From assembly GCA_021646405.1 (NCBI GenBank), contig SOER01000022.1:1-49937 (forward strand): 49,937 nt of DNA, written 5' to 3'. The notes below the pieces were generated by a model. The model did not search any database and was not told the DNA's origin. It was given only the letters and a program-made list of their open reading frames with translations. Below are positions 135 to 43,457 of the stretch, one piece after another; position 1 is the first letter of the stretch; each line of letters opens with the position of its first letter. A program made the translations under genes and the position numbers. This stretch comes from Candidatus Loosdrechtia aerotolerans (GTDB lineage Bacteria; Planctomycetota; Brocadiia; Brocadiales; Brocadiaceae).

Positions 135-199
135 AGCAGGCATGCGTAGAGGTGTTTTGAGAAAATTTTAGATGAGAAATGAAAGGAGAAGACCAACTG

Positions 200-2629: not shown

Positions 2630-2685
2630 ATAACGGTATATTTATAGTTGATCGTTAAGTAGCATATGCGATGTGAGAAGTAGGT

Positions 2686-2735
2686 AAAGAGCTGGGTTTG
2701 GTAGGTTTTTCTCTACTGCCCGGCTCTTTTCATTT
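2686..2735 (+). terminator. Rho-independent terminator after hzsA
   Basis: An 11-bp stem with one G-U pair joins AAAGAGCTGGG (2686-2696) to CCCGGCTCTTT (2719-2729) and runs into TTTTCATTTT. It begins 57 bases after the hzsA stop and separates the hzs operon from the hao promoter. Confidence 0.85.
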
Positions 2736-2805
2736 TAAAAAAAGATATTATAATTATGTAAGGTTATCAAAAGGATGTTATGTGACATATATAGCTAAAA
2801 TATCC

Positions 2806-2833
2806 TTGACAAGCATCACTGCAAATGTATAAT
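2806..2833 (+). promoter_or_regulatory. Sigma70-type promoter of hao
   Basis: A perfect TTGACA (2806-2811) and a perfect TATAAT (2828-2833) are separated by 16 bases. Transcription would start near 2840, giving a leader of about 180 nt. The hdh gene has nearly the same arrangement at 7489-7516. Confidence 0.8.
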
Positions 2834-2891
2834 GGGAAGACTTTTGATATCTTTATGGTAATATCTGTTAAAACCATTCGTAATAATAATG

Positions 2892-2909
2892 CTGGAAGGG
2901 GGTGGTTTG
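2892..2909 (+). promoter_or_regulatory. Shared 18-bp leader element (Shine-Dalgarno-like) upstream of hao
   Basis: CTGGAAGGGGGTGGTTTG matches the hdh-leader element at 7596-7613 at 16 of 18 positions. Allowing G-U pairs, it can pair over about 15 nt with the usual planctomycete 16S tail (assumed GGATCACCTCCTTTCT), yet it lies 110 nt before the hao start, which has its own GGAG. It may be a ribosome standby site, the start signal of a short leader ORF (ATG 2926, seven codons) or a protein-binding site. Confidence 0.55.
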
Positions 2910-3018
2910 GATAGCCTAAGAGTTTATGATACTGAAGGTTATCAATTAATTGTTTTGGATGTGATAGGGGATAAATGCAAGTTAAATTGTGCGATAATAA
3001 GAGAAAGGAGAAGGTTTG

Positions 3019-4629
3019 ATGCTTGAGATTTTGAAGAAGCCATTATCCAGAGTTGCAGGTCTGACTCTTGCAATAGCTGGGGTGACGCTGCTTACGTGTA
3101 CTATGGAAAATGGTACCGCAAGAGCAGAAGGTCCTACGTTTCAGGATATAGCATCGCAAGTGTTTGGTCAGCCAGTTGGTCCTGATAATGATGGAACGCT
3201 CTATATATTCGGGTTAACCGCAAAATATACTGAGCCGGAATATGTTGAGGGGCGCGGCCCATATAAATCATTCTTAAAATTTTTGCCCTCTATTCGCTGG
3301 TACGACCCGGAATATTACTGGACTAACGGGAGCCAGACAGAAGGTGTATTCAAGAATGAAGAATGTGTACTTTGTCATACTGTTCAAACACCTACAATCG
3401 TAAACGATTGGAAGTTGAGTTCGCATGGAAATGCCGAGCTGAGAAGAGGTATTGGTGTAAAGAAAGATGGGCAGCCGTATGATGGTATAGTTGGCTGCGA
3501 TACCTGCCATGGTAACAATCACCAGAAGTTATTCATGCCTACCTATAAGCACTGCGGTGAGTGCCATCCGCAACAGACTGCAGAACACAGGTCAGGCGCG
3601 TTAGGGTCACACACTCATGCGTTTACCGTAAATACGTTAGAATTTGCCTGGCAGTTAGGAAAACCTGCTGAAGAAGTTGCAGGTTGTGCAGAATGTCATG
3701 CTATTGCTGAAAACAGATGCGACGGTTGTCATACCAGGCATATCTTCAGCCCGGCTGAAGCAAGGAAGCCAACCGCCTGCAGATACTGCCATATGGGTAT
3801 TGACCATGATGAGTGGGCCATGTATAATACCTCTATCCATGGATGTCTATACGAAGCTGAATCCGGAACAATGGATTGGAACAAACCTCTGAAGAAAGGA
3901 AACTACAGGGTTCCGACATGTGCATATTGCCATATGCAGGACGGAAATCACAATCCACAACAGTTCGGTACGATTTACAGTGATATGGGTATGTTTGAAG
4001 TTGACCGAGGAGCACCCAGATATAAGGCAAAAAGGGATGCCTGGATAAAGAAATGTCAGGATTGTCACTCACCGAGGTTTGCTGCTGACAAATTGAAAGA
4101 AATGGATGATGGTATCCGGTTGAGCTTCACCAAATGGAGAGAGGCTGCTGCTGTAATCGTTGGTTGCTTCCTGGATGGTGTTGTTGATCCTATGCCGGAA
4201 GGTTCTCCGCCTGACTGGTACGGTCACTATACATTCAGCTTATTACCTGGTGGTGATCCAAGATTTTATGCAACTTCAAACCTTGAGCGGTTAGGTCTTG
4301 AAATGATCTGCTACCTGATCGGAAATACTTACAAGGCATTAGCCCACATGAGTATGTATAACGCAACATACGGAAATGGTGGTGCCTTTGAAACAGACAG
4401 AAAGTTGATTGAAATCAAGACAGAGGCTGCTAAATTGAGAAGGTTTGCAGCGATTGAAAAGAAGATTGAGTTAGAGCATAAATCCGAGGCATTCTGGAAG
4501 CATGGTGAATATTCAGATCTCCTCCCCGGCTGGAAGAGGAAACCTGGCGATGTTGATGTTGAATGGTTCAAGAGAACTGATATTCCTCACCGTGCAAATG
4601 CAGATGCTGGTGTAGAAGTACATCACTAA
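3019..4629 (+). CDS. hao: Hydroxylamine oxidoreductase, octahaem, oxidative type (kustc1061-like)
   Basis: Octahaem cytochrome c of the anammoxosome that oxidises hydroxylamine to NO and so recycles hydroxylamine lost from hydrazine synthase. The 536-residue product has a signal peptide and eight CxxCH motifs (CVLCH, CDTCH, CGECH, CAECH, CDGCH, CRYCH, CAYCH, CQDCH). Downstream lies the motif MSMYNATYG, whose last Tyr is residue 451 when counted from ATG 3019. That is the position I recall for the P460-crosslinking Tyr of Kuenenia HAO, which marks an oxidative, trimeric enzyme. The rest of the sequence also reads like kustc1061. An in-frame TTG at 3016 exists, but GGAG (3007-3010) lies 8 bases before the ATG, which is the better start. 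It has its own promoter, a long leader and a double hairpin after the stop. Confidence 0.95.
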   Translation: MLEILKKPLSRVAGLTLAIAGVTLLTCTMENGTARAEGPTFQDIASQVFGQPVGPDNDGTLYIFGLTAKYTEPEYVEGRGPYKSFLKFLPSIRWYDPEYYWTNGSQTEGVFKNEECVLCHTVQTPTIVNDWKLSSHGNAELRRGIGVKKDGQPYDGIVGCDTCHGNNHQKLFMPTYKHCGECHPQQTAEHRSGALGSHTHAFTVNTLEFAWQLGKPAEEVAGCAECHAIAENRCDGCHTRHIFSPAEARKPTACRYCHMGIDHDEWAMYNTSIHGCLYEAESGTMDWNKPLKKGNYRVPTCAYCHMQDGNHNPQQFGTIYSDMGMFEVDRGAPRYKAKRDAWIKKCQDCHSPRFAADKLKEMDDGIRLSFTKWREAAAVIVGCFLDGVVDPMPEGSPPDWYGHYTFSLLPGGDPRFYATSNLERLGLEMICYLIGNTYKALAHMSMYNATYGNGGAFETDRKLIEIKTEAAKLRRFAAIEKKIELEHKSEAFWKHGEYSDLLPGWKRKPGDVDVEWFKRTDIPHRANADAGVEVHH

Positions 4630-4638
4630 TCTTGAAAA

Positions 4639-4659
4639 ATCTGGCGTGAAAAGCCAGAT
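4639..4659 (+). other. Small hairpin downstream of hao
   Basis: ATCTGGC (4639-4645) and GCCAGAT (4653-4659) form a perfect 7-bp stem with a 7-nt loop, 10 bases after the hao stop. There is no T-run, so it more likely protects the 3' end or works with the next hairpin than terminates alone. Confidence 0.55.
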
Positions 4660-4670
4660 CTGTTAAATTA

Positions 4671-4710
4671 CGATGAGGGTAGCAGAAATAAAAATTTGCT
4701 ACCCTCATTG
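4671..4710 (+). terminator. Terminator-like hairpin between hao and trpB
   Basis: ATGAGGGTAGCA (4673-4684) pairs with TGCTACCCTCAT (4697-4708), a 12-bp perfect stem extended by two further pairs, with an AT-rich 12-nt loop. It is followed by TGTGTTTATAGGTTTTTT. It should end most hao transcripts before trpB. Confidence 0.75.
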
Positions 4711-4748
4711 TGTTTATAGGTTTTTTATTTAGAATGAGGAGTTTGATT

Positions 4749-5999
4749 ATGCGGACAACAGCATTAAAATCAAAGTTTTTTAAACCTCAAACATTACCTG
4801 CCGAAGCGCCAAGCCTGCCTGATAAGTCAGGACACTTTGGATGTTTTGGCGGAAAGTTTGTTCCGGAAACGATAATGCCTGCCTTGGAAGAATTAGAAAA
4901 GGCTTATGAAGAGGCGAAAAATGACCCAACCTTTACTGCAGAACTGGAATACTATCTAAGGGAGTATGTGGGAAGGCCTTCACCTCTTTATTACGCTGAA
5001 CGATTAACAAAAAAGCTTGGCGGTGCAAAGATCTATTTGAAAAGGGAGGATTTAAACCACACTGGTGCGCACAAAATAAACAATACGATTGGTCAGATTC
5101 TCCTTGCGAAAAGGATGGGAAAGAAAAGGATCATTGCTGAGACAGGGGCCGGGCAACATGGGGTTGCCACAGCAACTGCCGCTGCAATGTTTGGAATAGA
5201 GTGTAACGTGTATATGGGTGAAGAGGACATCAGACGCCAGTCGTTGAATGTCTTTAGAATGAAACTCCTGGGGGCAAAGGTGATTCCGGTTGCTAGTGGC
5301 TCAAAGACACTCAAGGATGCAACCAATGAGGCATTTCGGGATTGGATGGCGTCTGTACGACATACGCATTATATCTTAGGATCGGTCGTTGGTCCGCATC
5401 CGTACCCGATGATGGTGAGGGATTTTCAGACAGTAATTGGTAAAGAAGTGAAAAGACAGATACTGGAGAAAGAGAACAGATTGCCAGACTGCCTTATTGC
5501 ATGTGTCGGTGGCGGGAGTAACTCGATGGGACTGTTTCACCCTTTTATCGGAGATATACACGTTCGGATGATCGGTGTGGAGGCCGGAGGGATTGGATCT
5601 GATATTGGTCAGCACGCATCAACATTAACAAGCGGTGAAATCGGTATTTTACACGGCAGTGCCAGTTATGTACTGCAGGACAGTGATGGGCAGACACTCC
5701 CTGTTCACTCAATTTCTGCCGGGTTGGATTATCCCGGTGTTGGTCCGGAGCATAGTTATTTAAAAGATGCCGGAAGGGCAGAGTATGTTTCGGTTACAGA
5801 CGATGAGGCAGTAAATGCCTTCCAGGAATGTGCACGGTTAGAGGGAATTATTCCGGCCCTTGAGGCGTCGCATGCAATTGCATTTACCATGAAATTTGCT
5901 CCACAACTCAGGAAAGATGAGGTAATTGTTGTGTGCTTGTCCGGTAGCGGCGATAAAGATTCTTTTGAGGTTGCAAAGAAACTTGGATATAAGATTTGA
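4749..5999 (+). CDS. trpB: Tryptophan synthase beta chain
   Basis: PLP enzyme that condenses indole and serine to tryptophan. The 416-residue sequence shows the classic TrpB1 motifs: [10 protein letters not shown] near the N-terminus, HTGAHKINN with the PLP lysine at 109, [10 protein letters not shown], the GGGSN phosphate-binding loop, and CLSGSGDKD near the C-terminus. The open frame extends upstream to 4710 inside the terminator. ATG 4749 is preferred because GAGGA (4736-4740) is 8 bases upstream and conservation begins soon after. trpA follows after 95 bp. No trp leader peptide or T-box was seen, and no other trp gene is in the window. Confidence 0.96.
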
Positions 6000-6094
6000 T
6001 TCAAAGGCGGATAGGGTTATTTTTCTTAGAACGACGTATAGAATTCATTCATTGTTTATGGGTAATCGTATGAGGTGTTTATTAACAGATTTTC

Positions 6095-6898
6095 ATGAAT
6101 AGAATCGATGAAAAATTCCGTGAATTGAAAGGAAAAGGAAAACCTGCTTTTATACCATTTATTACGGCCGGAGATCCGGACCTGCAAACGACAAAGGATT
6201 TAATCTTAGAATTTGAGAAGAGGGGGGCAGACATTATTGAACTCGGTATTCCTTTTTCTGACCCTATTGCAGATGGTCCTATTATTCAGGCGTCCTATAG
6301 CAGGGCTTTAACGAAGGGTATTAAAGTTGTAGAAATACTCGATATGATCTCACTCCTTCGCAGGGAATCTAACATACCGATTGTCTCAATGGTATCGTAT
6401 AGTATCGTTTATAAACAGGGATATCAGACTTTTATTGAAAGGGCACGTGATGCCGGATTGGATGGTTTTACTATTCCGGATTTACCTGTAGAAGAAAACG
6501 ATGAGATATTCGAAATAGCAAAAAAATATGATTTCAAAATTGTTTGCTTTATTGCACCAACTACAACAGACCAGCGTATGCTTTCTATCACCCGGAAAAC
6601 GCAGGGGTTTTTATATTATATTTCAGTTGTAGGGATTACCGGAGTAAGGGATACATTACCGGATGATATCCTTCAAAATATCAATAAATTAAAACAGAAA
6701 ACAAATGTTCCAATTAGTGTAGGTTTTGGTGTTTCTACTCCTGAACACGCAAGGATGGTTGGGAATGTTGCCGATGGTGTGATTGTTGGTAGCGCTATTG
6801 TAAGGGAAATTGAAAAAAATATTACAAAATCCCGTAATGAATTGGTAAAAAATGTTGGTGGTTTAGTTGGTGAATTGGTACTGGGTGTAAAAGGTTGA
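6095..6898 (+). CDS. trpA: Tryptophan synthase alpha chain
   Basis: Alpha subunit of tryptophan synthase, which cleaves indole-3-glycerol phosphate to indole and glyceraldehyde 3-phosphate and channels indole to TrpB. The 267-residue TIM barrel has the catalytic acids at the textbook positions Glu49 and Asp60 in the motif IELGIPFSDPIADGP, and the phosphate loop VGFGVSTPEHA. ATG 6095 gives a normal family N-terminus. A GAGG at 6072-6075 is too distant to be a good ribosome site, so translation may be weak or coupled. The gene closes the trpBA pair that sits between hao and hdh, with no functional link to anammox catabolism apparent. Confidence 0.95.
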   Translation: MNRIDEKFRELKGKGKPAFIPFITAGDPDLQTTKDLILEFEKRGADIIELGIPFSDPIADGPIIQASYSRALTKGIKVVEILDMISLLRRESNIPIVSMVSYSIVYKQGYQTFIERARDAGLDGFTIPDLPVEENDEIFEIAKKYDFKIVCFIAPTTTDQRMLSITRKTQGFLYYISVVGITGVRDTLPDDILQNINKLKQKTNVPISVGFGVSTPEHARMVGNVADGVIVGSAIVREIEKNITKSRNELVKNVGGLVGELVLGVKG

Positions 6899-6982
6899 GT
6901 TTCTGGCAGCGGGAAAAAACAGTGGACACCTGCTTAAGTTTTGAAATGAATCTGCTGTAGAATTAATGTGTTGTTGGTATAT

Positions 6983-7052
6983 AACTGACATTCAAGAAGT
7001 TTCCTGCCAGGTTGTGGAAATTTCTTGTAAAGAATACAGTTGTTGAGACAAT
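6983..7052 (+). repeat. Copy of the end of the 25345 repeat element
   Basis: AACTGACATTCAAGAAGTTT (6983-7002) and, 38 bases further, TTGTTGAGACAAT resemble AACTGACATTCGAGAGGTTT and TGTTGAGATAAT at 25345-25407 in the same order and spacing (57 against 50 bases). This looks like a solo end or decayed relative of that element. Confidence 0.5.
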
Positions 7053-7100
7053 CTATAGCATTCATATGATGAAACCGGATATCACAGAGAAAAGGGGTGG

Positions 7101-7124
7101 CACGGACAAACTGGTTTGTCCGTG
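7101..7124 (+). terminator. Hairpin, possible terminator of trpBA
   Basis: CACGGACAAA (7101-7110) and TTTGTCCGTG (7115-7124) form a perfect 10-bp stem with a 4-nt loop, followed by TTTATA. It lies 200 bp past trpA, so it could end that transcript or be an operator-like palindrome. Confidence 0.5.
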
Positions 7125-7290
7125 TTTATAGAATCAATTCCGATTTATCATGTTCGGTTGCATTTCTGGGTTACTATAATGCGTGGTAGAGGAGATAAAG
7201 AGAAAAGATACCTCCGTCTTAATCCCATATGCATCAAACTAAGGAATTTTCATGTTCAGTATAAAATGCTCTCTTAACACCATAAAAAGC

Positions 7291-7319
7291 CGAGATTCTT
7301 CGCGGAGTGAAGAATCTTG
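7291..7319. other. Hairpin in trpA-hdh intergenic region
   Basis: CGAGATTCTTC (7291-7301) and GAAGAATCTTG (7309-7319) pair over 11 bp with one G-U pair and a 7-nt loop. It has no T-run. Its role is unknown; it may be part of a decayed repeat. Confidence 0.45.
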
Positions 7320-7488
7320 AAAGGTTTTCACTGGTAAAGAGAAAGGTACAAGAACTTATAGTGGTCAGGTACTTATCACCTTATTGGTTATTATACAACA
7401 CCTTACAATGCAATATCCTGTTGGAAAATAATACGAATGGTGTACGCAAGTGATAAGTTTATTATTCTTAAAAATATTAACTTTTGTA

Positions 7489-7516
7489 TTGACTTAAGTA
7501 CAAGTTTAAGTATAAT
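7489..7516 (+). promoter_or_regulatory. Sigma70-type promoter of hdh
   Basis: TTGACT (7489-7494), a 16-base spacer and a perfect TATAAT (7511-7516) mirror the hao promoter. From the -10 box to the start codon is 191 bases here and 186 bases in hao. Confidence 0.75.
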
Positions 7517-7595
7517 GGCAGTTCCAAATCATTGGGTAAATTTTGAATATTATATAAGACATATGCCTGAGGTATGTTTTATATGCATAGGAAAT

Positions 7596-7613
7596 CTGAA
7601 AGGGGGTGGTCTG
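7596..7613 (+). promoter_or_regulatory. Shared 18-bp leader element (Shine-Dalgarno-like) upstream of hdh
   Basis: CTGAAAGGGGGTGGTCTG is the partner of the hao element at 2892-2909 (16 of 18 identical). It can pair with an anti-Shine-Dalgarno tail over about 15 nt with G-U pairs but is about 94 nt upstream of the hdh start. An 18-codon ORF begins 13 bases after it (ATG 7626, stop 7680-7682). Confidence 0.55.
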
Positions 7614-7706
7614 CAAGAGTCAGCGATGGAGTTGTTTTACCGAAAATGCAATCGAATGGCGATTGTGGAGAATGGACAATGAGAAAGGAGGAGAATGTAA
7701 AAGAAT

Positions 7707-9413
7707 ATGCGTAATTTTCTAAAAGTAACGTTGATGTCTGCATTAGTAGGTTGTGGAATGATGGGTGCCGCATCCACTTTAATGCTGAAAGAGGCAAAGG
7801 CTGTAGAAATTATTACCCATTGGGTACCTCACGAAATTTATGGTGCACCGGGAGAGCCTGATAACAGTGGTAAGGTCTTCTTCTCTGGTTTAGGCGCAAC
7901 ATATTCCGGGTATCCGAAGCACGAAAACCCACCACCATATCCGGGGAAGTACAGCAAATTTTGGAGAACATTGCCTGCTTATCGTTATTACATCCCGGAC
8001 TATATGTATAACAGGGATGAAGTAAGACCTTCAAATCCAATTAAGGGTACCTTCCAGAATGAGCAGTGCCTTGCATGCCATTCAGTTATGACACCTGGTA
8101 TTGTAAGGGACTGGAAGAAGAGTGCTCATGCAAGGGCAGAACCGGCTCCGACTGGTTGCGATACCTGTCATGGTAATAATCACCAGAAATTAACCATGCC
8201 ATCATCAAAGGCTTGCGGAACCAGTGAGTGCCACGAGACACAGTACAACGAACAGGGGCAGGGTGGTATAGGCTCACACGCATCATGTTCCAGCTTTGCA
8301 CAGATAGAGTGTGCATGGTCAATTGAAAGGCCGCCTGGTGATACTGCCGGTTGTACATTCTGTCATACAAGTTCAGAAGAGCGATGCAGCACCTGCCACC
8401 AGAGGCATCAGTTTGATCCAAAGGTTGCAAGGCGTGCAGAGCAGTGTAAGACATGTCACTGGGGTAAGGATCACAGGGATTGGGAAGCATATGATATCGG
8501 TCTCCATGGTGTAGTTTATCAGGTGAATAAATGGGATCCACAGCAGTTCGACTGGACAAAGAAGCTGGCTGATGCAGATTATGTTGGCCCAACCTGCCAG
8601 TACTGCCACATGAGAGGCGGCCATCACAATGTGCAGAGGTTCAGCACCGTATATACCAGTATGGGTATGTCCATGGCTGATCGTGGCGCACCGCTCTGGA
8701 AGGAGAAGAGAGATCGTTGGGCTTCAGTATGTGACGATTGTCATTCACCAAGATTTGCTCGTGAAAACTTGCAGGCCCTGGATGAATCCGTTAAGGATGC
8801 AAGTTTGAAGTATCGTGAGACCTTTAAAGTTGCAGAGGATCTCCTGAAAGATGGTGTTAGTGATCCAATGCCTAAAGATCTTTGTCCGGATTGGTCAGGT
8901 CAGCATATCTGGAGTTTAAAGATCGGTGCTTATCATGACGGTCCAGAGTATGGCGGTAAGACGGGTGAATCCGGTGAATTCAGGATGTCGAACGTTACAG
9001 ATGTGGAAAGGCTTTGCTTTGAGAGCGTAGGATATTTCCAGACATACGTCTACAAGGGTATGGCTCATGGTTCATGGAACGATGCTACATACAATGATGG
9101 TTCATTCGGTATGGATCGTTGGTTGGTTAACATAAAGCAGAATGCTTCTCGGGCGCGGAGACTTGCTGCTCTTGAGAAGAAGGTTGGTATTAACTGGGTT
9201 CCGGAGGATTACTGGAAAACAGGTGAGTGGCTTGATCAGTTAACCGGTCCTTATATCGTAAAGAATCACCCTGGAAAAACCATTTTCGATCTTTGTCCGG
9301 ATCCAGGTTGGTTAGATACCCACCATGCACCTGCTGAAGAGGTCGAGTATATCAATAGAAAGCTAGAGGAACTTGGTATGAAACACGAAGGTCATGGAGG
9401 TCACGGTCACTAA
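7707..9413 (+). CDS. hdh: Hydrazine dehydrogenase, octahaem (kustc0694/kustd1340-like)
   Basis: Oxidises hydrazine to N2 with release of four electrons, the energy-conserving step of anammox, in the anammoxosome lumen. The 568-residue product has a signal peptide ending near EAKAVE, then eight haem sites: seven CxxCH (CLACH, CDTCH, CTFCH, CSTCH, CKTCH, CQYCH, CDDCH) and one CX4CH at residues 170-176 (CGTSECH). Tyr462, in the motif NDATYNDG, sits where I recall the P460-crosslinking Tyr of kustc0694. The N-terminal motif ITHWVPHEIYG and the His-rich tail are also typical. The start follows a strong GAAAGGAGGAG site. The gene has its own promoter, a long leader and a terminator, so it is monocistronic. 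Confidence 0.96.
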   Translation: MRNFLKVTLMSALVGCGMMGAASTLMLKEAKAVEIITHWVPHEIYGAPGEPDNSGKVFFSGLGATYSGYPKHENPPPYPGKYSKFWRTLPAYRYYIPDYMYNRDEVRPSNPIKGTFQNEQCLACHSVMTPGIVRDWKKSAHARAEPAPTGCDTCHGNNHQKLTMPSSKACGTSECHETQYNEQGQGGIGSHASCSSFAQIECAWSIERPPGDTAGCTFCHTSSEERCSTCHQRHQFDPKVARRAEQCKTCHWGKDHRDWEAYDIGLHGVVYQVNKWDPQQFDWTKKLADADYVGPTCQYCHMRGGHHNVQRFSTVYTSMGMSMADRGAPLWKEKRDRWASVCDDCHSPRFARENLQALDESVKDASLKYRETFKVAEDLLKDGVSDPMPKDLCPDWSGQHIWSLKIGAYHDGPEYGGKTGESGEFRMSNVTDVERLCFESVGYFQTYVYKGMAHGSWNDATYNDGSFGMDRWLVNIKQNASRARRLAALEKKVGINWVPEDYWKTGEWLDQLTGPYIVKNHPGKTIFDLCPDPGWLDTHHAPAEEVEYINRKLEELGMKHEGHGGHGH

Positions 9414-22540: not shown

Positions 22541-25192
22541 CTATTTCAGAACATGGGCATAACTGTTTTCTAACAGTTCCTTTTTTAAATATTCCACCTT
22601 TTCCATCGCTTGTTTTATCTTAATAAAGATTAAGCCACGTATATAGCCAAATAATTTTATAAATCTCTGTTCATCTATAATGCACATATAGGAATCAACT
22701 GCCTTCTTGTAATAATCTGCCAGCTCTTCTTCATACAACATAGCTAATTCTTCATAAAGGTTCCCAATCCTATACAATGCATTAACCGGTATTATTCCTT
22801 CAAACTTTTCTATTATTTCAGAAAGTTTGACTATTGCCTCTTTGTAATAGATTTTTGCACCATCATCGTCTCCTTCGTCGTACAATGCTAATCCTACATA
22901 ATGATATGCTTCAGCTACGGCATACGAATGCTCCTGTGCATCCCTCTTTCTCCCTTCTTTAAGTTCTTCTAATATATTTTTATATCGTTGCTCCATCGCT
23001 TCAACGAGACTGATACTGAGTGGAATATCGGCATCTTCCAGTTCATTTTGGCTCTCTACTTTTACACAGGGAAGGAGCAGTTTTGAAAGGCTTTTTAAAC
23101 TTAACTCCTTTATATAATAAAAGTTACCTACAGAAGTAAATTTCCTGTTCTGTCCTGTATACCGTAAAATGATATCTATCTCTTCTTTTGTCATTCTAAA
23201 TTCTTTACTCAAGAATAAGGATAGTCCGGTATCGCTTGCTTGATTCAATTCCCTGCGCAGCCGTAATAGTTTGGTAAGAATTGCCAATTTGTATGAGGGT
23301 TTTTGCCCGTGTAATACCGTTCTCCTGAAAAAAATAAGCCATGGTTCTCGGCAAGAGAACTTCGGACTTTTGGCAGTATTGTAGAAGACTTCTAAGGCAG
23401 TTTTAAGCTTATTCCTTTCCCAATCTTCAGATTCTCTATAGTTGAGTTCCCGATATCTTTTATCAATTCGATGAAAATATTCTTCTATGAGATCTTTCAT
23501 TTGAATAAAACTTATTTTCCGAAAGAGCTTTAATTCATGGGGGCTATACTTTAGGGCGTTTCTATAAAAGCTGATTGCCTCTTCATTTCGTTGGTCGTGG
23601 TAACTTTTATCCCCGAGATATTCATACAATCTTTTGATCATCCTTATAGGCTCAAGTTTTTCCTTATCATGCGGGTCTGAACGATAAATTTCTTCAAATT
23701 GTTTAATTATAGATTCTGGTGTTTGAATTGATTCACTTATAAGAGAGTTTAGCCCTTTCGTATATTCAAGGAAGGAACTGCATCTCTGTCGCAGATCATC
23801 ATCAATATCCTTACACATCATAGCCTTTTGTAAGCATTCTTCCGCACTACGAAACATACCAAATTCTACATATATCTTACTGAGGTGAAAGAGAGCTGAT
23901 CCGCTTGTATTGCTGTTTATCTCCGGATAATCTTTATGCTGCCACGTATAGTTGCTCACTCCTGTCTTATAAATAATAGGGACAACCTCAAAGCGGTTAT
24001 TTGTGATACGAACAACGTGTACTGTTATTTCTCCGGTTTCAGCGTGAATTGCCACGCCTGGAATTTCTTTTCCGTTGGGGAACTTCATCCAGGGATTTTT
24101 TTTAATAACACTGGCAGTAAAAACGGTGTCCTGCCCCTTTACGAGTTCTTTCGATGTTAGTATGGTATTCCATGGTAATTCATCTTCTTTTTCTGTACCT
24201 GGCCTGACGATTTTAAAGTTCCTTAAAATGTCAATTTCGTTTTTCTTGAAGAGGCTCCAGTTGCTTATCTTTCTTAATAACCTTTCATTTTGTGCCACAT
24301 CACCGGGTAATATTCTGAGGCTCATTTCGCCGCCCAGATTTTTAACAATAATTGCACTGAGTGCTGCTTCAGGGATTCCTCCAACTCCTACAATCAAATC
24401 AATTTCGTTTCTTGCAGCAGCGAGAGTAGGGGTGAGGTCATCGTCCTTCACAAGGATCACTTCTGCACCAAGACCCCTGATCGTCTGAATCAGTTTCTTA
24501 TGCCTTGGTCTATTCAGGACAACCACCTTCATTTTTTTGATCTTATTTTGAATGTTTTGTAGGCTAATTGTCCCATGCTCGCTCTTTATTACACTTTCGG
24601 CCATAAGCCATAAGTTCTTTGTAATACTGTGCGTTACATTAACACCTACGCCTTTATACTTATTACCAACAATGGTTTTAACACCATACATATCCGGAGA
24701 ATTAAATAATCCTCCCCGTTCGCTGTATCCGACAGCAAAAATCGTTCCGCCTCTTGCTCTTTCACTGGTGATACACTGGTCATTTTCAAAGGCACTGAGC
24801 ACAATGTCTGCTTCTGTATCTTTCGTACCGCTTGCAGAGCCAAATTGTTCCCCTATATAAAGCATTGGCATATCTTTTCGCTCACCCTCTGCATTTACTA
24901 CGTATGCCTTCCACCAATTAAAGCTGTTATAGATATGCCTGAGCCACCAGATGGCCATGCTGCGTAAGCGAAAGACATTAAAACCTTCACCGTTTGTACT
25001 AAAGTACTTATGAGATCTTGCCGCAACAATGCCAACGGCGTGCCGTAATTCGTTTCTCTGTATAAGTTGAAGACCTGTTTCTGAAATTCTTAAATTATAC
25101 TCTTCAGGGATATATGCTTCGGTGATGTAGGGATCTTCTATCTTTTTAGAATCAAAACTTATATCCTTTATAAAAGTAATATTGTTTTTCAT
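22541..25192 (-). CDS. Fructose-1,6-bisphosphatase class II (GlpX)-like domain fused to a TPR/helical-repeat region
   Basis: 883 residues. Residues about 45-400 follow the GlpX fold: PMLYIGEQFG (109-118), a DIVLSAFEND block (129-138), GGLFNSPDMYGVKTIVG, RPRHKKLIQTIRGLGAEV (228-245), VGVGGIPEAALSA and LGGEMSLRILPGD (286-298). Residues about 430-883 are helical repeats, with TPR-like units near the end (YAVAEAYHYVGLALYDEGDD). Compared with E. coli GlpX as I remember it, metal ligands Asp33 and Asp85 align with Asn67 and Ser133, while Glu57, Glu88 and Glu213 appear kept (Glu103, Glu136, Glu275). It may therefore be a non-catalytic or altered phosphatase. It stands alone between two repeat-rich gaps with a weak ribosome site. 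Cytoplasmic; function unknown. Confidence 0.8.
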   Translation of the reverse strand: MKNNITFIKDISFDSKKIEDPYITEAYIPEEYNLRISETGLQLIQRNELRHAVGIVAARSHKYFSTNGEGFNVFRLRSMAIWWLRHIYNSFNWWKAYVVNAEGERKDMPMLYIGEQFGSASGTKDTEADIVLSAFENDQCITSERARGGTIFAVGYSERGGLFNSPDMYGVKTIVGNKYKGVGVNVTHSITKNLWLMAESVIKSEHGTISLQNIQNKIKKMKVVVLNRPRHKKLIQTIRGLGAEVILVKDDDLTPTLAAARNEIDLIVGVGGIPEAALSAIIVKNLGGEMSLRILPGDVAQNERLLRKISNWSLFKKNEIDILRNFKIVRPGTEKEDELPWNTILTSKELVKGQDTVFTASVIKKNPWMKFPNGKEIPGVAIHAETGEITVHVVRITNNRFEVVPIIYKTGVSNYTWQHKDYPEINSNTSGSALFHLSKIYVEFGMFRSAEECLQKAMMCKDIDDDLRQRCSSFLEYTKGLNSLISESIQTPESIIKQFEEIYRSDPHDKEKLEPIRMIKRLYEYLGDKSYHDQRNEEAISFYRNALKYSPHELKLFRKISFIQMKDLIEEYFHRIDKRYRELNYRESEDWERNKLKTALEVFYNTAKSPKFSCREPWLIFFRRTVLHGQKPSYKLAILTKLLRLRRELNQASDTGLSLFLSKEFRMTKEEIDIILRYTGQNRKFTSVGNFYYIKELSLKSLSKLLLPCVKVESQNELEDADIPLSISLVEAMEQRYKNILEELKEGRKRDAQEHSYAVAEAYHYVGLALYDEGDDDGAKIYYKEAIVKLSEIIEKFEGIIPVNALYRIGNLYEELAMLYEEELADYYKKAVDSYMCIIDEQRFIKLFGYIRGLIFIKIKQAMEKVEYLKKELLENSYAHVLK

Positions 25193-33050: not shown

Positions 33051-33593
33051 TTACGTGAAGGTGGTGAATTTTTCCTTTGTTACTTTGCATATAGGACATT
33101 TATTTGGGAGTTCTCCTCTTCGTGTATATCCACAAACCCGGCAGATATGGATAGATTTTGGTTCTATATCATGATTTTTGTCAATAACCTTTTTAACTTT
33201 TTCAAGGAGTTTTTTGTGTAATCTTTCAACAAGATAATTCCAGAGAAGATTTCTTTCGGTGATTTTTTCTTTTCGGGATTTTGTCAATCCCTTGTATTCA
33301 GGGGGATACATTTCGGTAATACCAAACTCTTTTCCTGTAATCGCTAATGCTAAATTCTTCTTTGTATTACCGAACCCACATGTTACTATACTGCTTGTCG
33401 TAAATATCCTTTCTAAATGTCCGAGTTTAAGATGATAATTGCTTGCCTGAATATATTCTGAATAGGCAATGGCACGAAATAACCGGGCAACATTTGGAAG
33501 TTTTTCTGCTTCAGCCTGGGCGGCAAAATATCGATAACGCACGTGAGATTGACTTTTACCGCCAAAGGCATTCATAAAATGCTGCTCGTTCAT
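33051..33593 (-). CDS. Rubrerythrin paralog with lost di-iron ligands
   Basis: 180 residues: a ferritin-like four-helix domain (about 1-140) and a C-terminal rubredoxin-like domain with CRVCG and CPICK. Aligned to its tandem neighbour, the first iron ligand Glu (FGGESQAH) is Lys13 here (FGGKSQSH), and the His of the ExxH motif (AEYVH) is Gln49 (SEYIQ), while Glu46, the ITEMYP Glu and the last ExxH (VERLH) remain. The rubredoxin site is intact. Peroxide-reducing activity is therefore doubtful; it may act in electron transfer or bind another metal. It begins 5 bp after the stop of the intact copy with a poor ribosome site. Confidence 0.85.
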   Translation of the reverse strand: MNEQHFMNAFGGKSQSHVRYRYFAAQAEAEKLPNVARLFRAIAYSEYIQASNYHLKLGHLERIFTTSSIVTCGFGNTKKNLALAITGKEFGITEMYPPEYKGLTKSRKEKITERNLLWNYLVERLHKKLLEKVKKVIDKNHDIEPKSIHICRVCGYTRRGELPNKCPICKVTKEKFTTFT

Positions 33594-33598
33594 TTCTT

Positions 33599-34147
33599 TT
33601 ATGTGAAAGCGGTAAAATCTTCCTTTTTTGCCTCACAAAGAGGACATTTATCAGGGGCTTCACCTTCAAGGGTGTATCCACAAATTCTACAGACCTGAAT
33701 TGGCCCAAGTACTGCGTCAGTATTTCTGTCGACAGACTCCTTTGCCTTTTCAAAAAGTATCTTATGCATTTTTTCTGTACCATAAGCCCATCGAAAACTT
33801 CTCTCCGCGCCCTTTTCTCCCTGGAATTTAGCAATCTCTATGAAGGAAGGGTACATTTCGGTGATCTCGTAGTTTTCTCCCATAATAGCTAATCGTATGT
33901 TTTTTTTTGTATCGCCGGGACCAAACGCCGCCATACTATTTGCCACAAATCCACCCTCGAGATGAATAAGTTCACGATAATGGTCACCTGCATGGACGTA
34001 TTCTGCATGAGAGATAGCCCGGAATAGCCGGGCGGTATTAGGAAAATTCTCTTTATCAGCCTGATCGGCAAAATGGAGATAGCGCATATGTGCCTGACTT
34101 TCGCCGCCAAAGGCATTAATTAAGTTCTGTTCAGTCATTGCTTTCAT
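33599..34147 (-). CDS. Rubrerythrin
   Basis: 182 residues. It reduces hydrogen peroxide at a di-iron site fed by its own rubredoxin domain and protects anaerobes from oxidants. Ligands are visible in FGGESQAH (Glu16), SHAEYVHAGDH (Glu49, His52), EITEMYPSF and TEKMH; the rubredoxin site is CRICG with CPLCE. ATG 34147 follows GGAGGAAATTT and overlaps the end of the M48 protease gene by 17 bp, so translation is probably coupled. A second ATG at codon 4 is aligned with the paralog start and is an alternative. It is followed directly by the degenerate paralog. Confidence 0.92.
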   Translation of the reverse strand: MKAMTEQNLINAFGGESQAHMRYLHFADQADKENFPNTARLFRAISHAEYVHAGDHYRELIHLEGGFVANSMAAFGPGDTKKNIRLAIMGENYEITEMYPSFIEIAKFQGEKGAERSFRWAYGTEKMHKILFEKAKESVDRNTDAVLGPIQVCRICGYTLEGEAPDKCPLCEAKKEDFTAFT

Positions 34148-38793: not shown

Positions 38794-39906
38794 TTACACC
38801 TTTCCATGCATCCTTACCGGTCGTTTCATGTTCGCAAATTTACACTTTCTTAAGTTTTCTTTTCTTGCCCTTCTCTGTGTGAGCTGATCATTCAAATGTC
38901 TTTTCCATAAATCTGAGGTTGATCTCGTTAATTCGATGAGGGAAAACCATTGATTAGGATCAAAGAACCACCGTTTAATGACAAAACCGGCTTCGGCAAT
39001 CATAGCCTCGGCTCTCCTTATAGTAAACTTACGGGATATTTCGGTTCGAATAGTTTCGCCTTTTTCCATGGTAATGTGCAGATTTAGCCCTTTAATTTCT
39101 GCAGCAATCTTACAGTTAGCACGCAGATGCATTTCCATTTGACTCTTTTCACTATCAAAAAATGCGTAATGGTCAAAATGATCTAAATGAAAATTTGCGT
39201 CGAGTTTTCTGTTTACTACAGAAAGAATATTTTTATTAAATTCAGAAGTAACACCCTGGGTATCATTATAAGCAGGCTCTAATACCTCACGTGGCTTAAC
39301 CATATCTAAGCCAAGAAGGAACCGGTCGTTTGGCTCCATTAACTGTGCTATATTTCTTAAGAAGGTTATAGCTTCTTTCTCGTGGAAGTTACCAATCGTG
39401 CTCCCAAAAAGAATAAATAATTTTTCACGTTCGGTAGGAATTTTTTCTATCTTCTTCGTAAAATCAGCCACGATGCCCAGTACTTTTAGATGAGGGTATT
39501 CACTCAGTAATTCTTTTGATGCTTCCTTGAGAACCAATTCATTTACATCAATCGGTATATAGCGTATATCTATTAAACTCGATTGGTATGCTACATTTAA
39601 AAGGGTTTTCACCTTCCAGCTTGCACCTGATCCTAATTCTATAAGATCACCTCCTTGAAAGTTCTCCATTATAGCAGAGGCTGAATCTTTTAAGATGGAC
39701 AGCTCCATGCGTGTTAGGTAATATTCAGGTAAAAGACAAATCTTTTCAAAAAGATTTGAACCACAGGCATCATAAAAATATTTACTCGGGATAAATTTTT
39801 GTGAAGCCGTTAAACCTTTTAAAATATCTCTCCTAAACTCATTCATAGAGGTAACGTTGGTAGGACCGACTATTTCAATTCGGTCAGTGCTGGAAGCGTT
39901 GTACAT
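38794..39906 (-). CDS. egtD: L-histidine N-alpha-methyltransferase (EgtD)
   Basis: 370 residues. EgtD trimethylates histidine to hercynine with SAM, the first step of ergothioneine synthesis. Motifs: KYFYDACGSNLFEKIC, LPEYYLTRMELSIL, the SAM loop LIELGSGASWKV, LFILFGSTIGNF, LLGLDMVKP, AYNDTQGVTSEFNKNIL with the substrate-binding Asn, and IRTEISRKF with the Glu/Ser pair that holds histidine in EgtD. The C-terminal 40 residues are an extra basic tail. It follows the molybdopterin/cysteine-desulfurase fusion gene by 113 bp on the same strand. Keeping the Glu and Ser of IRTEIS supports histidine as substrate rather than another amino acid. Confidence 0.88.
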   Translation of the reverse strand: MYNASSTDRIEIVGPTNVTSMNEFRRDILKGLTASQKFIPSKYFYDACGSNLFEKICLLPEYYLTRMELSILKDSASAIMENFQGGDLIELGSGASWKVKTLLNVAYQSSLIDIRYIPIDVNELVLKEASKELLSEYPHLKVLGIVADFTKKIEKIPTEREKLFILFGSTIGNFHEKEAITFLRNIAQLMEPNDRFLLGLDMVKPREVLEPAYNDTQGVTSEFNKNILSVVNRKLDANFHLDHFDHYAFFDSEKSQMEMHLRANCKIAAEIKGLNLHITMEKGETIRTEISRKFTIRRAEAMIAEAGFVIKRWFFDPNQWFSLIELTRSTSDLWKRHLNDQLTQRRARKENLRKCKFANMKRPVRMHGKV

Positions 39907-40019
39907 GGATAGAGCCTCCTCTCTTACATAACATCTTCCAAAAAATACGCAAAGAAAAGATATCCATACAATAATAAGGATACAGAGTCTCTCTTGACCC
40001 TAATAGTACTTTTTCCCAA

Positions 40020-43000
40020 TTACCGGCAGGGAATAAAGCGTACAATATTCTTTGAATTACGGATTACTGTGTCGAGAAGCGCTATTGTCTCATCAATTTC
40101 TTCTCCGGTAGTTTCAGTCCCGAGAGAAAATCTGATAGAGCAATGCGCTTCTTCCTCTGACAACCCCATTGCTAAAAGTGTATGCGATGGTTTTGGGGAG
40201 CCGGCACGGCACGCAGAACCGGAGGAAAGAGATACTCCTTTTTGATTCAGAGCTAATACTATTGATTCACCCCGCATACCGGGAAGGGTAATATTTAAGG
40301 TATTCGGCAGCCTTTTTATTCTATGACCGTTTAGTTTCACTTCAGGGATTAATTTTCGAATTCCCTCTTCAAGTCTGTTACGCATTTCCGTTACCCTATT
40401 CATGAAAAGAAGGTTTCCCGGTGCAATTTCAGCGGCCCTACCAAATCCTGCTATTCCGATTATATTTTCTGTTCCTGCACGTAATCCACCTTCCTGTTTC
40501 CCGCCGTGGATAAGGGATTCAAGGGAAACTCCGGTCCGGATATACAGTGCTCCAATACCTTTCGGACCATAGATTTTATGTCCTGATATCGATAAAAAAT
40601 CTACACCAAGCGCTTCTACATCTACCGGAATCTTTCCCACTCCCTGTACACAATCGGTATGAAATAAAACCCCATATCTCTTTGTTATGGTTGTTAATTC
40701 CTTAATGGGTTGCAGTGTTCCGGTTTCATTATTTGCAGACATTATGCTTACAAGGCAGGTTCTATCGGTAATGGCGTTGGTTAAATCATCCGGATCAACC
40801 ATCCCTGTATCATCCACCATAAGATACGTTACTTGAAAACCGTACTTCTCCAGCCATTTGCATGTCATGAGTACTGACGGGTGTTCTACCCGGGTAGTAA
40901 TAATATGGTTTTTTTTGTGCTTATTTTGCCCGGCAAATGCAATACCTTTTAATACGAGATTATTTGATTCAGAACCACTTCCGGTAAAAATAATCCGCCG
41001 TGCCGTACAATGTATTAACTGTGCAATACTTCTCCGTGCTGATTCCAGGAGAACCTGGGACTCTTTTCCTTCTTTATAAATGCTGGAAGGGTTTCCAAAG
41101 TGATTATTCATACACCTTGTCATTGCCTCACAAACGTCCGGATGAAGCGGTGTCGTGGCATTATGATCAAGGTAGATACGCCTTTTCGTATCTTCTCTCT
41201 TTCCTGCTGTTATTATAGCTTCTACACATGAGCTGTGTTCGCCGGAGTTTATCTTAACAGCCTTCTCTTGCCCGGAAACTTTTGTCACGTTACAAAGAAG
41301 GGCCTTATAAACAGGAAATCCTGAAATAGGATCGTAACGGGTGTGATCCGTCAATTCATTGATATTACATTCCCGCCATGCCCTGGGTCCTACAGGACCG
41401 CCGCCTCCCATATTTGCATCTACGGTACCTTTCATAATATCATCGGTAACCACTGCCCTCATAATAACGTGTCCTCTTGCAGTTTGAACAAAAACCTGGT
41501 TACCATCTTTAATATCCCTTTCTTCCGCATCGCGGGTATTTATTGTCACTGTCGGTTCAGGCCGTTCTTTGTACAGGCCGGGAATGCCATGATGTTGTGA
41601 ACGGAAGTCGGTAGTTACCCGGGATCCGGAGTTGAAAATCAAAGGAAATTCTTGTAAAAATTCTGGACTGGAAAGAGGTCCCTCCTGGGGCTCTGTATAG
41701 ATTGGCAATGGATCATAGCCGTGTTCTTCAAGGATTATTGAGGCGATCTCAAATTTTCCTGTTGGTGTGTGAAACCCCGGTCTTCTGTCCGTCCGTAAAA
41801 GCCCCTTTTCCCACTTCCTGTACTGGGAGATCGCTGTAGGGACCTGTACGATTCCACCTTGTGCACGTACTTCTTCTAAGGTAAATCCGGATCCTTTTAA
41901 AACATGACGGAGTAACTCTTCTTCACTTTGCGGATAGAGGTGTCCGTAGCCTAAACGGCGTGCAAGTTCTGCCATGATGAAGAAATCATTCCGTGCCTCT
42001 CCCAAAGGATCAATAACCTTTTCCCGTATTCGAAAGATTGGTCCGTATACCATATACGATTCAATTTCATACATGGTTGTAGCCGGGAGTACAATATCTG
42101 CATAAGCTGCGTCAGCAGTGAGCTGGCGATCTATACAGACAAGAAAATCAAGGGCACGGAGGGTCTTCCTCCATATCTCTGGCTGCGGCCAGGCGGTTAT
42201 GAGTGAAGCGCCTGAAATAATAAGAGAACGGATAGGATATGGTTTGCCATGAATGACTGCATCAGGCAGGGCTATAGGATGAGATTCCTTACGGTATAAA
42301 TTATAGATGGGGAATCTGTCGCTACCTATTGTCCTGCGTACATCCGGATTTGGAATATGGCCTTCACGGTTAATGGGAAAGTGGTTTTCCCGCATGGTAA
42401 AACACCAGCCTCCGGGAACATCTAACTGTCCCGCAAGTGCCCACAATACATGGACTGCGCGTATTGCCTGTACGCCGCTGTCACTATATTCAAGACCGCT
42501 GTACATGACAGGTGATACTCCCCGCATACGGGAAATACGCCCCGCAAGTGATATAATCTTCCCGGCAGGAACGCCGGTAATATCCTCTACAACCTCCGGC
42601 CTGAAATGCTGTACATATTGAGAAAACTCATCAAATCCCCTCGTCCAGCCTCTTACAAATTCTTCATCGTAAAGCTCTTCAGCGATAAGGACGTTGCATA
42701 TTCCAAGGGCCAATGCTCCATCAGTACCCGAGCGGACAGGTATCCACTCAGCGTTTGTTAATTTTGCTGCCATTGTTCGCCGGGGGTCTATTACCACTAC
42801 GTGTGCCCCGCGCTCATGCGCCCTGATTGTCCTTTTTAGATCCAGAGGAGGACAGTCTGTGGCCGGATTCGCACCCCAGATGATAATAAGCTCGGCGTTT
42901 TCAATATCTGAAAACATATTCATGAGCATACTACCCATCGTTACATGGGGAGCAATCATTGCGAAAGAAACATAACACAGCGATCCTGCTCCCATCGTGT

Positions 43001-43457
43001 TTGGTGATCCGAAAGGGAATAACACGCTCGATGCTGATGAAATTGCTACTTCTTTTGGTTGATAGATATCACACAGCGAGAGTTCAAAATTTCCACGTCC
43101 GGTATATATTGCAGTTGCTTCGGGACCAAAGTCTCGCCTGGTTTCATTGAGCCTTCTGATAATACTATCGTATGCCTCATCCCATGATATCCTCTCAAAT
43201 GTGTAAGTTCCCCTAGGTCCTTTTCGCTGCATAGGATAGAGGATGCGGTCTTTTGAATAAACAATATCTGCAGAATGCTCCCCGAGTTTACAGATAATAC
43301 CAAAATCTGAACGCTCATCCGGCCGTACCGTATCAATTCGTCCTTCATGATTGTAGGTAACGGTAACCCAGCATCCAGCGGGACAAATTCCACATAACGC
43401 ATGTTTCTCTCTTGTTGTTAATTTCTTGCCACGATGTATTGTTTTTCTTGTATTCAA
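40020..43457 (-). CDS. Molybdopterin oxidoreductase fused to cysteine desulfurase (metallopterin-dependent ergothioneine synthase-like)
   Basis: 1145 residues in one unbroken frame. Residues 1-750 are a DMSO-reductase-family domain: 4Fe-4S motif CGICPAGC (22-29) with Cys56, VLFPFGSPNTMGAGSLCYVS with Cys161 as probable metal ligand, IIWGANPATD, VVIDPRRT, and the C-terminal ANMGGGGP region. Residues 759-1145 are a complete NifS/IscS-type desulfurase: YLDHNATTPL, SESNNLVL, His859, SANNETGTLQPI, SGHKIYGPKG with PLP Lys961, GGKQEGGLRAGTEN and SSGSACRAG with catalytic Cys1083. I recall this two-domain design from the metallopterin-dependent ergothioneine synthase of Caldithrix abyssi; egtD next door supports that role. 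The start is TTG 43457 with a poor ribosome site; no in-frame ATG lies nearby. Confidence 0.87.
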   Translation of the reverse strand: MNTRKTIHRGKKLTTREKHALCGICPAGCWVTVTYNHEGRIDTVRPDERSDFGIICKLGEHSADIVYSKDRILYPMQRKGPRGTYTFERISWDEAYDSIIRRLNETRRDFGPEATAIYTGRGNFELSLCDIYQPKEVAISSASSVLFPFGSPNTMGAGSLCYVSFAMIAPHVTMGSMLMNMFSDIENAELIIIWGANPATDCPPLDLKRTIRAHERGAHVVVIDPRRTMAAKLTNAEWIPVRSGTDGALALGICNVLIAEELYDEEFVRGWTRGFDEFSQYVQHFRPEVVEDITGVPAGKIISLAGRISRMRGVSPVMYSGLEYSDSGVQAIRAVHVLWALAGQLDVPGGWCFTMRENHFPINREGHIPNPDVRRTIGSDRFPIYNLYRKESHPIALPDAVIHGKPYPIRSLIISGASLITAWPQPEIWRKTLRALDFLVCIDRQLTADAAYADIVLPATTMYEIESYMVYGPIFRIREKVIDPLGEARNDFFIMAELARRLGYGHLYPQSEEELLRHVLKGSGFTLEEVRAQGGIVQVPTAISQYRKWEKGLLRTDRRPGFHTPTGKFEIASIILEEHGYDPLPIYTEPQEGPLSSPEFLQEFPLIFNSGSRVTTDFRSQHHGIPGLYKERPEPTVTINTRDAEERDIKDGNQVFVQTARGHVIMRAVVTDDIMKGTVDANMGGGGPVGPRAWRECNINELTDHTRYDPISGFPVYKALLCNVTKVSGQEKAVKINSGEHSSCVEAIITAGKREDTKRRIYLDHNATTPLHPDVCEAMTRCMNNHFGNPSSIYKEGKESQVLLESARRSIAQLIHCTARRIIFTGSGSESNNLVLKGIAFAGQNKHKKNHIITTRVEHPSVLMTCKWLEKYGFQVTYLMVDDTGMVDPDDLTNAITDRTCLVSIMSANNETGTLQPIKELTTITKRYGVLFHTDCVQGVGKIPVDVEALGVDFLSISGHKIYGPKGIGALYIRTGVSLESLIHGGKQEGGLRAGTENIIGIAGFGRAAEIAPGNLLFMNRVTEMRNRLEEGIRKLIPEVKLNGHRIKRLPNTLNITLPGMRGESIVLALNQKGVSLSSGSACRAGSPKPSHTLLAMGLSEEEAHCSIRFSLGTETTGEEIDETIALLDTVIRNSKNIVRFIPCR

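Follow-up and report, generated by a model that had tools for sequence, protein, structure and literature searches.

We describe a pair of neighboring genes in the anammox bacterium Candidatus Loosdrechtia aerotolerans that very probably constitutes an oxygen-independent ergothioneine pathway. The pair lies in the window, by which we mean the whole stretch of DNA analysed (49,937 nucleotides; contig SOER01000022.1). One gene encodes a fusion protein that we identify, from its sequence, as a metallopterin-dependent ergothioneine synthase (MES), and the other, egtD, a predicted histidine N-alpha-methyltransferase. Together, they would convert histidine to trimethylhistidine and then to ergothioneine, a route that is well supported by residue-level comparison. 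From the Caldithrix homolog, we infer that the anammox proteins would act likewise in the cell.

The enzyme type is already known; the notable part is its new host. What is new here is MES in anammox bacteria, for which we found no earlier report: the main text of the study that characterized MES (Beliaeva & Seebeck 2022, PMC9516567) names no planctomycete or anammox host, and an earlier listing in its supplementary Table S1, which lay outside our comparison, is possible. A literature search returned no paper dealing with both ergothioneine and anammox, and no anammox metabolite or expression data.

The MES-egtD locus and its host

The features of the locus, with their equivalents in the Caldithrix enzyme, are as follows:

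40020..43457, minus strand: MES fusion gene (1145 aa, TTG start, single uninterrupted ORF)
41253..43457, minus strand: N-terminal bis-MGD/[4Fe-4S] module, residues 1-735 (closest solved structure, acetylene hydratase 2e7z)
43290..43394, minus strand: [4Fe-4S] cysteines C22, C25, C29, and C56 (Caldithrix C14, C17, C21, and C48)
42975..42977, minus strand: metal-ligand cysteine C161 (Caldithrix C153)
40023..41183, minus strand: C-terminal NifS/IscS-type cysteine desulfurase module, residues 759-1145 (from domain search and structural match)
40575..40577, minus strand: PLP lysine K961 (Caldithrix K952)
40209..40211, minus strand: persulfide cysteine C1083 in a mobile loop (Caldithrix C1074)
40140..40142, minus strand: conserved cysteine C1106 (Caldithrix C1097)
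40026..40028, minus strand: penultimate relay cysteine C1144 in the C-terminal tail (Caldithrix C1135)
39915..39919, minus strand: egtD ribosome-binding site GGAGG (read from the sequence)
38794..39906, minus strand: egtD, histidine N-alpha-methyltransferase gene (370 aa)

The original prediction of a 1145-residue Mo enzyme joined to a NifS-like desulfurase and followed by egtD holds on every count: the fusion is one ORF, its Pfam and NCBIfam domains cover both modules, and the coordinates span both genes. The TTG start has no ATG or GTG among the few in-frame codons 5′ of it. Lying 3′ of the fusion gene, egtD starts with an ATG that is preceded by GGAGG, and 113 bases separate it from the fusion stop codon. 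Pfam assigns the fusion to Molybdopterin (residues 71-500, E = 4e-40), Molydop_binding (607-719, E = 2e-20), and Aminotran_5 (761-1122, E = 3e-82). The top NCBIfam model for the C-terminal half is NifS (TIGR03402, E = 5e-145, under its equivalog cut-off). The fusion is not a chance product, because full-length copies, 58-77% identical, turn up in dozens of genomes spread over many phyla.

An AlphaFold2 model of the fusion has a mean pLDDT of 86 and a pTM of 0.80. Its top structural matches are acetylene hydratase for the first module and IscS/NFS1 for the second, the same as those for Caldithrix MES. pLDDT falls below 50 only at the N-terminus, residues 197-202, the linker (742-757), the C1083 loop (1082-1086), and the C1144 tail (1136-1145). 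The low scores of the loop and tail would fit mobile sulfur-carrying arms, although low confidence alone is no proof of motion.

Much of the nitrogen lost globally is lost through anammox bacteria, whose metabolism involves handling both NO and hydrazine. The host was expected to be one of them, and it is: the window ORF at 179-2629 encodes hydrazine synthase alpha (PF18582), and its presence on the same contig identifies the host as an anammox bacterium. The gene belongs to a run on the plus strand (179-9413). After it come genes for two multihaem proteins, the first of them hydroxylamine oxidoreductase-like, with a PLP enzyme gene between them. With these anammox genes on the same 50-kb contig, contamination was ruled out. 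The assembly measures 3.26 Mb and is 99% complete. A plasmid search gave zero matches, and promoter-like sites were no more numerous than in shuffled sequences in a promoter/terminator scan.

Other window genes deserve brief mention. A tandem pair of rubrerythrin genes (33051-34147, minus strand), with an adjoining M48 peptidase gene, lies ~5 kb downstream of egtD, and a similar rubrerythrin region occurs ~10 kb from egtD in a Jettenia genome (G005). Positions 22541-25192 (minus strand) encode an 883-aa protein with the unusual combination of a GlpX-type fructose-bisphosphatase domain and TPR repeats.

Correspondence with characterized enzymes

By its definition, MES joins a metallopterin module resembling acetylene hydratase to a cysteine desulfurase and is encoded with EgtD (PMC9516567). 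The Caldithrix homolog produced ergothioneine in E. coli, and production was lost on mutating K952, C1074, C1135, or C153; the effect of mutating C1097 was two-fold (PMC9516567). The same study names C14, C17, C21, C48, C153, K952, C1074, C1097, and C1135, and the window protein has all nine (9/9), with a numbering offset of 8 from C22 to C161 and of 9 from K961 to C1144. The Caldithrix abyssi precedent originally cited thus exists and agrees residue by residue, and the proposed alignment of the Mo-domain active sites matches at every Fe-S cysteine and at the metal-ligand cysteine.

For this comparison, we used a 1136-residue frame from Caldithrix abyssi HyVt-577 (L052), which is 67% identical to the window protein. 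Since every published residue number fits this frame, it is either the enzyme of that study or, at the named sites, cannot be told apart from it. All nine residues are invariant in 76 full-length homologs, and every intact homolog with a complete C-terminus ends in Cys-Arg or Cys-Lys before the stop codon. In a full-length tree (quick tree), the Caldithrix frame and the anammox copies fall within one 29-row group with 90% SH-aLRT support. The Caldithrix and window enzymes share the two-module fusion, length class (1136 and 1145 aa), association with egtD, and an anaerobic host. They differ in that the window protein has ~8 extra N-terminal residues, a predicted rather than demonstrated activity, and an anammox planctomycete as host.

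By analogy with Caldithrix, the PLP-dependent desulfurase would move sulfur from L-cysteine onto C1083. From there, the C-terminal C1144 would relay it to the Mo/W bis-MGD centre, whose ligand is C161, and ergothioneine would form when the sulfido group of the metal passes to C2 of the imidazole. Four recombinant MES homologs spread ~1000-fold in yield (PMC9516567), and activity of the window enzyme is therefore not assured.

EgtD scores 358.1 bits against TIGR03438 (cut-off 290.9). Compared with Mycobacterium smegmatis EgtD (4pim, 4uy7), a full-length homolog, 10/10 histidine-site residues are identical: Y45, F53, Y62, T170, N173, Y213, T220, M259, E289, and S291 in the window protein correspond to Y39, F47, Y56, T163, N166, Y206, T213, M252, E282, and S284. 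Roles for most of these ten have been described in M. tuberculosis EgtD (PMC8593015). A methyltransferase of another specificity would have counted against the original reading, and every histidine-binding residue checked is kept. Unlike the mycobacterial protein, window EgtD has a C-terminal extension of roughly 45 residues, and its partner is MES, not EgtB. The classic EgtB route was rejected, because the window genome has no EgtB above cut-off, with only partial matches of sulfatase-modifying-factor type far below it. EanB and EgtB ergothioneine synthases catalyse the same pathway step as MES, but are unrelated proteins.

Distribution, origin, and alternative readings

We find MES in 14 of 59 relatives (in three of them in pieces) and egtD above cut-off in 15, with both in 12. 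Thus, egtD occurs in 12 of the 14 MES genomes, compared with 3 of the 45 without MES (Fisher P = 3e-8, uncorrected for relatedness). In the two MES-only genomes, the contig ends 211 bases past MES (G017) or is fragmentary (G057). In one of the three egtD-only genomes (G047), a 3.4-kb contig carries egtD after a frame of sulfatase-modifying-factor/EgtB-like type. Among well-flanked homologs from other records, 41 of 58 have egtD beside MES; as a point against the pathway, egtD is missing from the nearest 1.5-6 kb at certain MES loci. This co-occurrence across genomes led us to reject the fusion and egtD as chance neighbors. Together with the nine MES residues and the EgtD pocket, it points to an oxygen-independent ergothioneine gene pair, as predicted.

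The fusion-egtD survey across Planctomycetes that had been proposed shows that the pair recurs and that, among the Planctomycetota sampled, MES is limited to anammox bacteria: of 392 genomes drawn evenly from the phylum, nine carry it, all from the window's order. Within anammox bacteria, its distribution is patchy. MES is present in Jettenia, Kuenenia, Scalindua, and the window genome; a congener (G001) lacks it, as does every sampled genome of g11 (probably Brocadia), the largest of the Brocadiaceae genera sampled. Loci found in both sequence collections put Jettenia (G017 = L038) and Kuenenia hertensis (G015 = L039) into the same family as the window genome. A standalone Mo/W enzyme of ~710 aa, also Cys-ligated, is found in several Brocadiaceae (L022, L024, L027, L037) and shares ~35% identity with the N-terminal module of MES. 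Having no desulfurase module, it is a separate enzyme and was rejected as MES. A peroxiredoxin-like gene adjoins it in two cases (L027, L037).

Two gene arrangements occur. The window genome has egtD downstream of MES, as do Jettenia, G008, and Kuenenia hertensis, whose EgtDs are 61-67% identical to that of the window. The order is reversed, with egtD upstream, in Scalindua-type genomes and in G010, a complete Kuenenia genome; there, EgtD is only ~41% identical to the window's. A single origin of all anammox egtD genes was rejected (AU P = 3e-30), as was grouping the G010 MES with other Brocadiaceae copies (P = 1e-36), and a single anammox MES clade was not (P = 0.079); these values come from quick trees with groups named after the tree was seen, and are indicative. 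The simplest reading would be that the genes were acquired at least twice and, in one direction or the other, passed between the lineages of Scalindua and Kuenenia. The Scalindua-type cassette of G010 lies at G010:C1:224932-229289 (L018, L124); in Kuenenia hertensis (L039), which GTDB assigns to the same genus, the cassette is of Brocadiaceae type. Past MES-egtD, the next small membrane-protein genes are common to the window and Jettenia only.

The fusion might instead sulfurate a metal cofactor, or be an oxidoreductase that sulfurates itself and acts on another substrate class, with egtD as an incidental neighbor; we consider this highly improbable. Its Mo module shares fold and Fe-S/Cys ligation with acetylene hydratase (2e7z), a protein without a C-terminal desulfurase, to which it is 26% identical; formate dehydrogenases and polysulfide reductase can be aligned with it as well. 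However, the CQSCD motif of acetylene hydratase corresponds to CGICP in the fusion, so that Pro26 replaces the Asp after the second Fe-S cysteine, a residue with a catalytic role. Similarly, the (Sec/Cys)-His of formate dehydrogenase, in which the His after the metal ligand is catalytic, corresponds to C161-Y162. We rejected both identities on these motif residues. Firm placement of the Mo domain with another substrate class would also have counted against the original prediction; in our tree the domain falls within the full-length MES homologs, and the rival motifs are missing. Cysteine desulfurases often sulfurate Mo cofactors (PMC9516567), but the penultimate relay cysteine is invariant and egtD tracks the fusion across genomes, whether upstream or downstream.

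If the pathway is real, its product or use could still differ, as selenoneine or as a thiolated histidine betaine that serves as a sulfur store or carrier, not an antioxidant. NifS-type desulfurases are often able to use selenocysteine, but no neighboring gene in the window was recognized as a selenium gene. The sulfur transfer of Caldithrix MES is reversible, which would permit a sulfur-buffer role, but ergothioneine is the product of all MES tested so far (PMC9516567), and we give a different product or use very little credence. There is a small, marginally greater chance that the genes are intact but seldom or never expressed, being a cassette gained by lateral transfer and now in the course of being lost. 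The patchy distribution, with MES missing from the congener and g11, would fit such decay, as would a 2-base frameshift in the MES gene of one Jettenia genome (G012). Against this, the window ORF is unbroken for 1145 codons, retains all catalytic residues, and is followed by a good egtD ribosome-binding site, and intact copies persist in several anammox genera. The frameshift itself (G012:C1, L173, base ~3235904-3235922) is an AT insertion, relative to G005, that splits MES in a complete single-contig genome; it is either a sequencing error or the mark of a decaying or switchable gene. Ergothioneine synthesis by MES and EgtD remains our preferred reading.

Thiol context and wider host range

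Planctomycetes are among the major lineages without a documented or predicted low-molecular-weight thiol, as of 2018 (PMC6282198). The residue-level match to a characterized synthase provides a concrete predicted thiol for anammox bacteria. By profile models, the window genome has no recognizable glutathione or bacillithiol enzymes: nothing matched the BshC, GCS2, or proteobacterial GshA models, all of which matched control genomes. Ergothioneine is thus the one recognizable thiol candidate among those tested. As a point against, ergothioneine was not a major thiol in the Chlorobiaceae tested, though some members carry EanA/EanB genes (PMC6282198).

We tentatively suggest, at somewhat less than even odds, that ergothioneine is a main low-molecular-weight thiol of some anammox bacteria, gained via at least two MES-egtD cassettes, one of them common to a Kuenenia and Scalindua. 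Protection against NO and hydrazine, as originally proposed, is a reasonable hypothesis, but conjecture. The patchy genera offer a natural plus/minus comparison between MES-bearing Jettenia, Kuenenia, and Scalindua and related genomes without MES.

The host range of this C-S bond-forming Mo/W enzyme is here widened to anammox bacteria. Far beyond Caldithrix, MES also occurs (L048, L104, and others) in archaea, Actinomycetota, Gemmatimonadota, Acidobacteriota, Nitrospirota, and Gammaproteobacteria. Strict anaerobes may not be the only hosts in these groups, at odds with the 2022 description of MES hosts as “exclusively anaerobic”.
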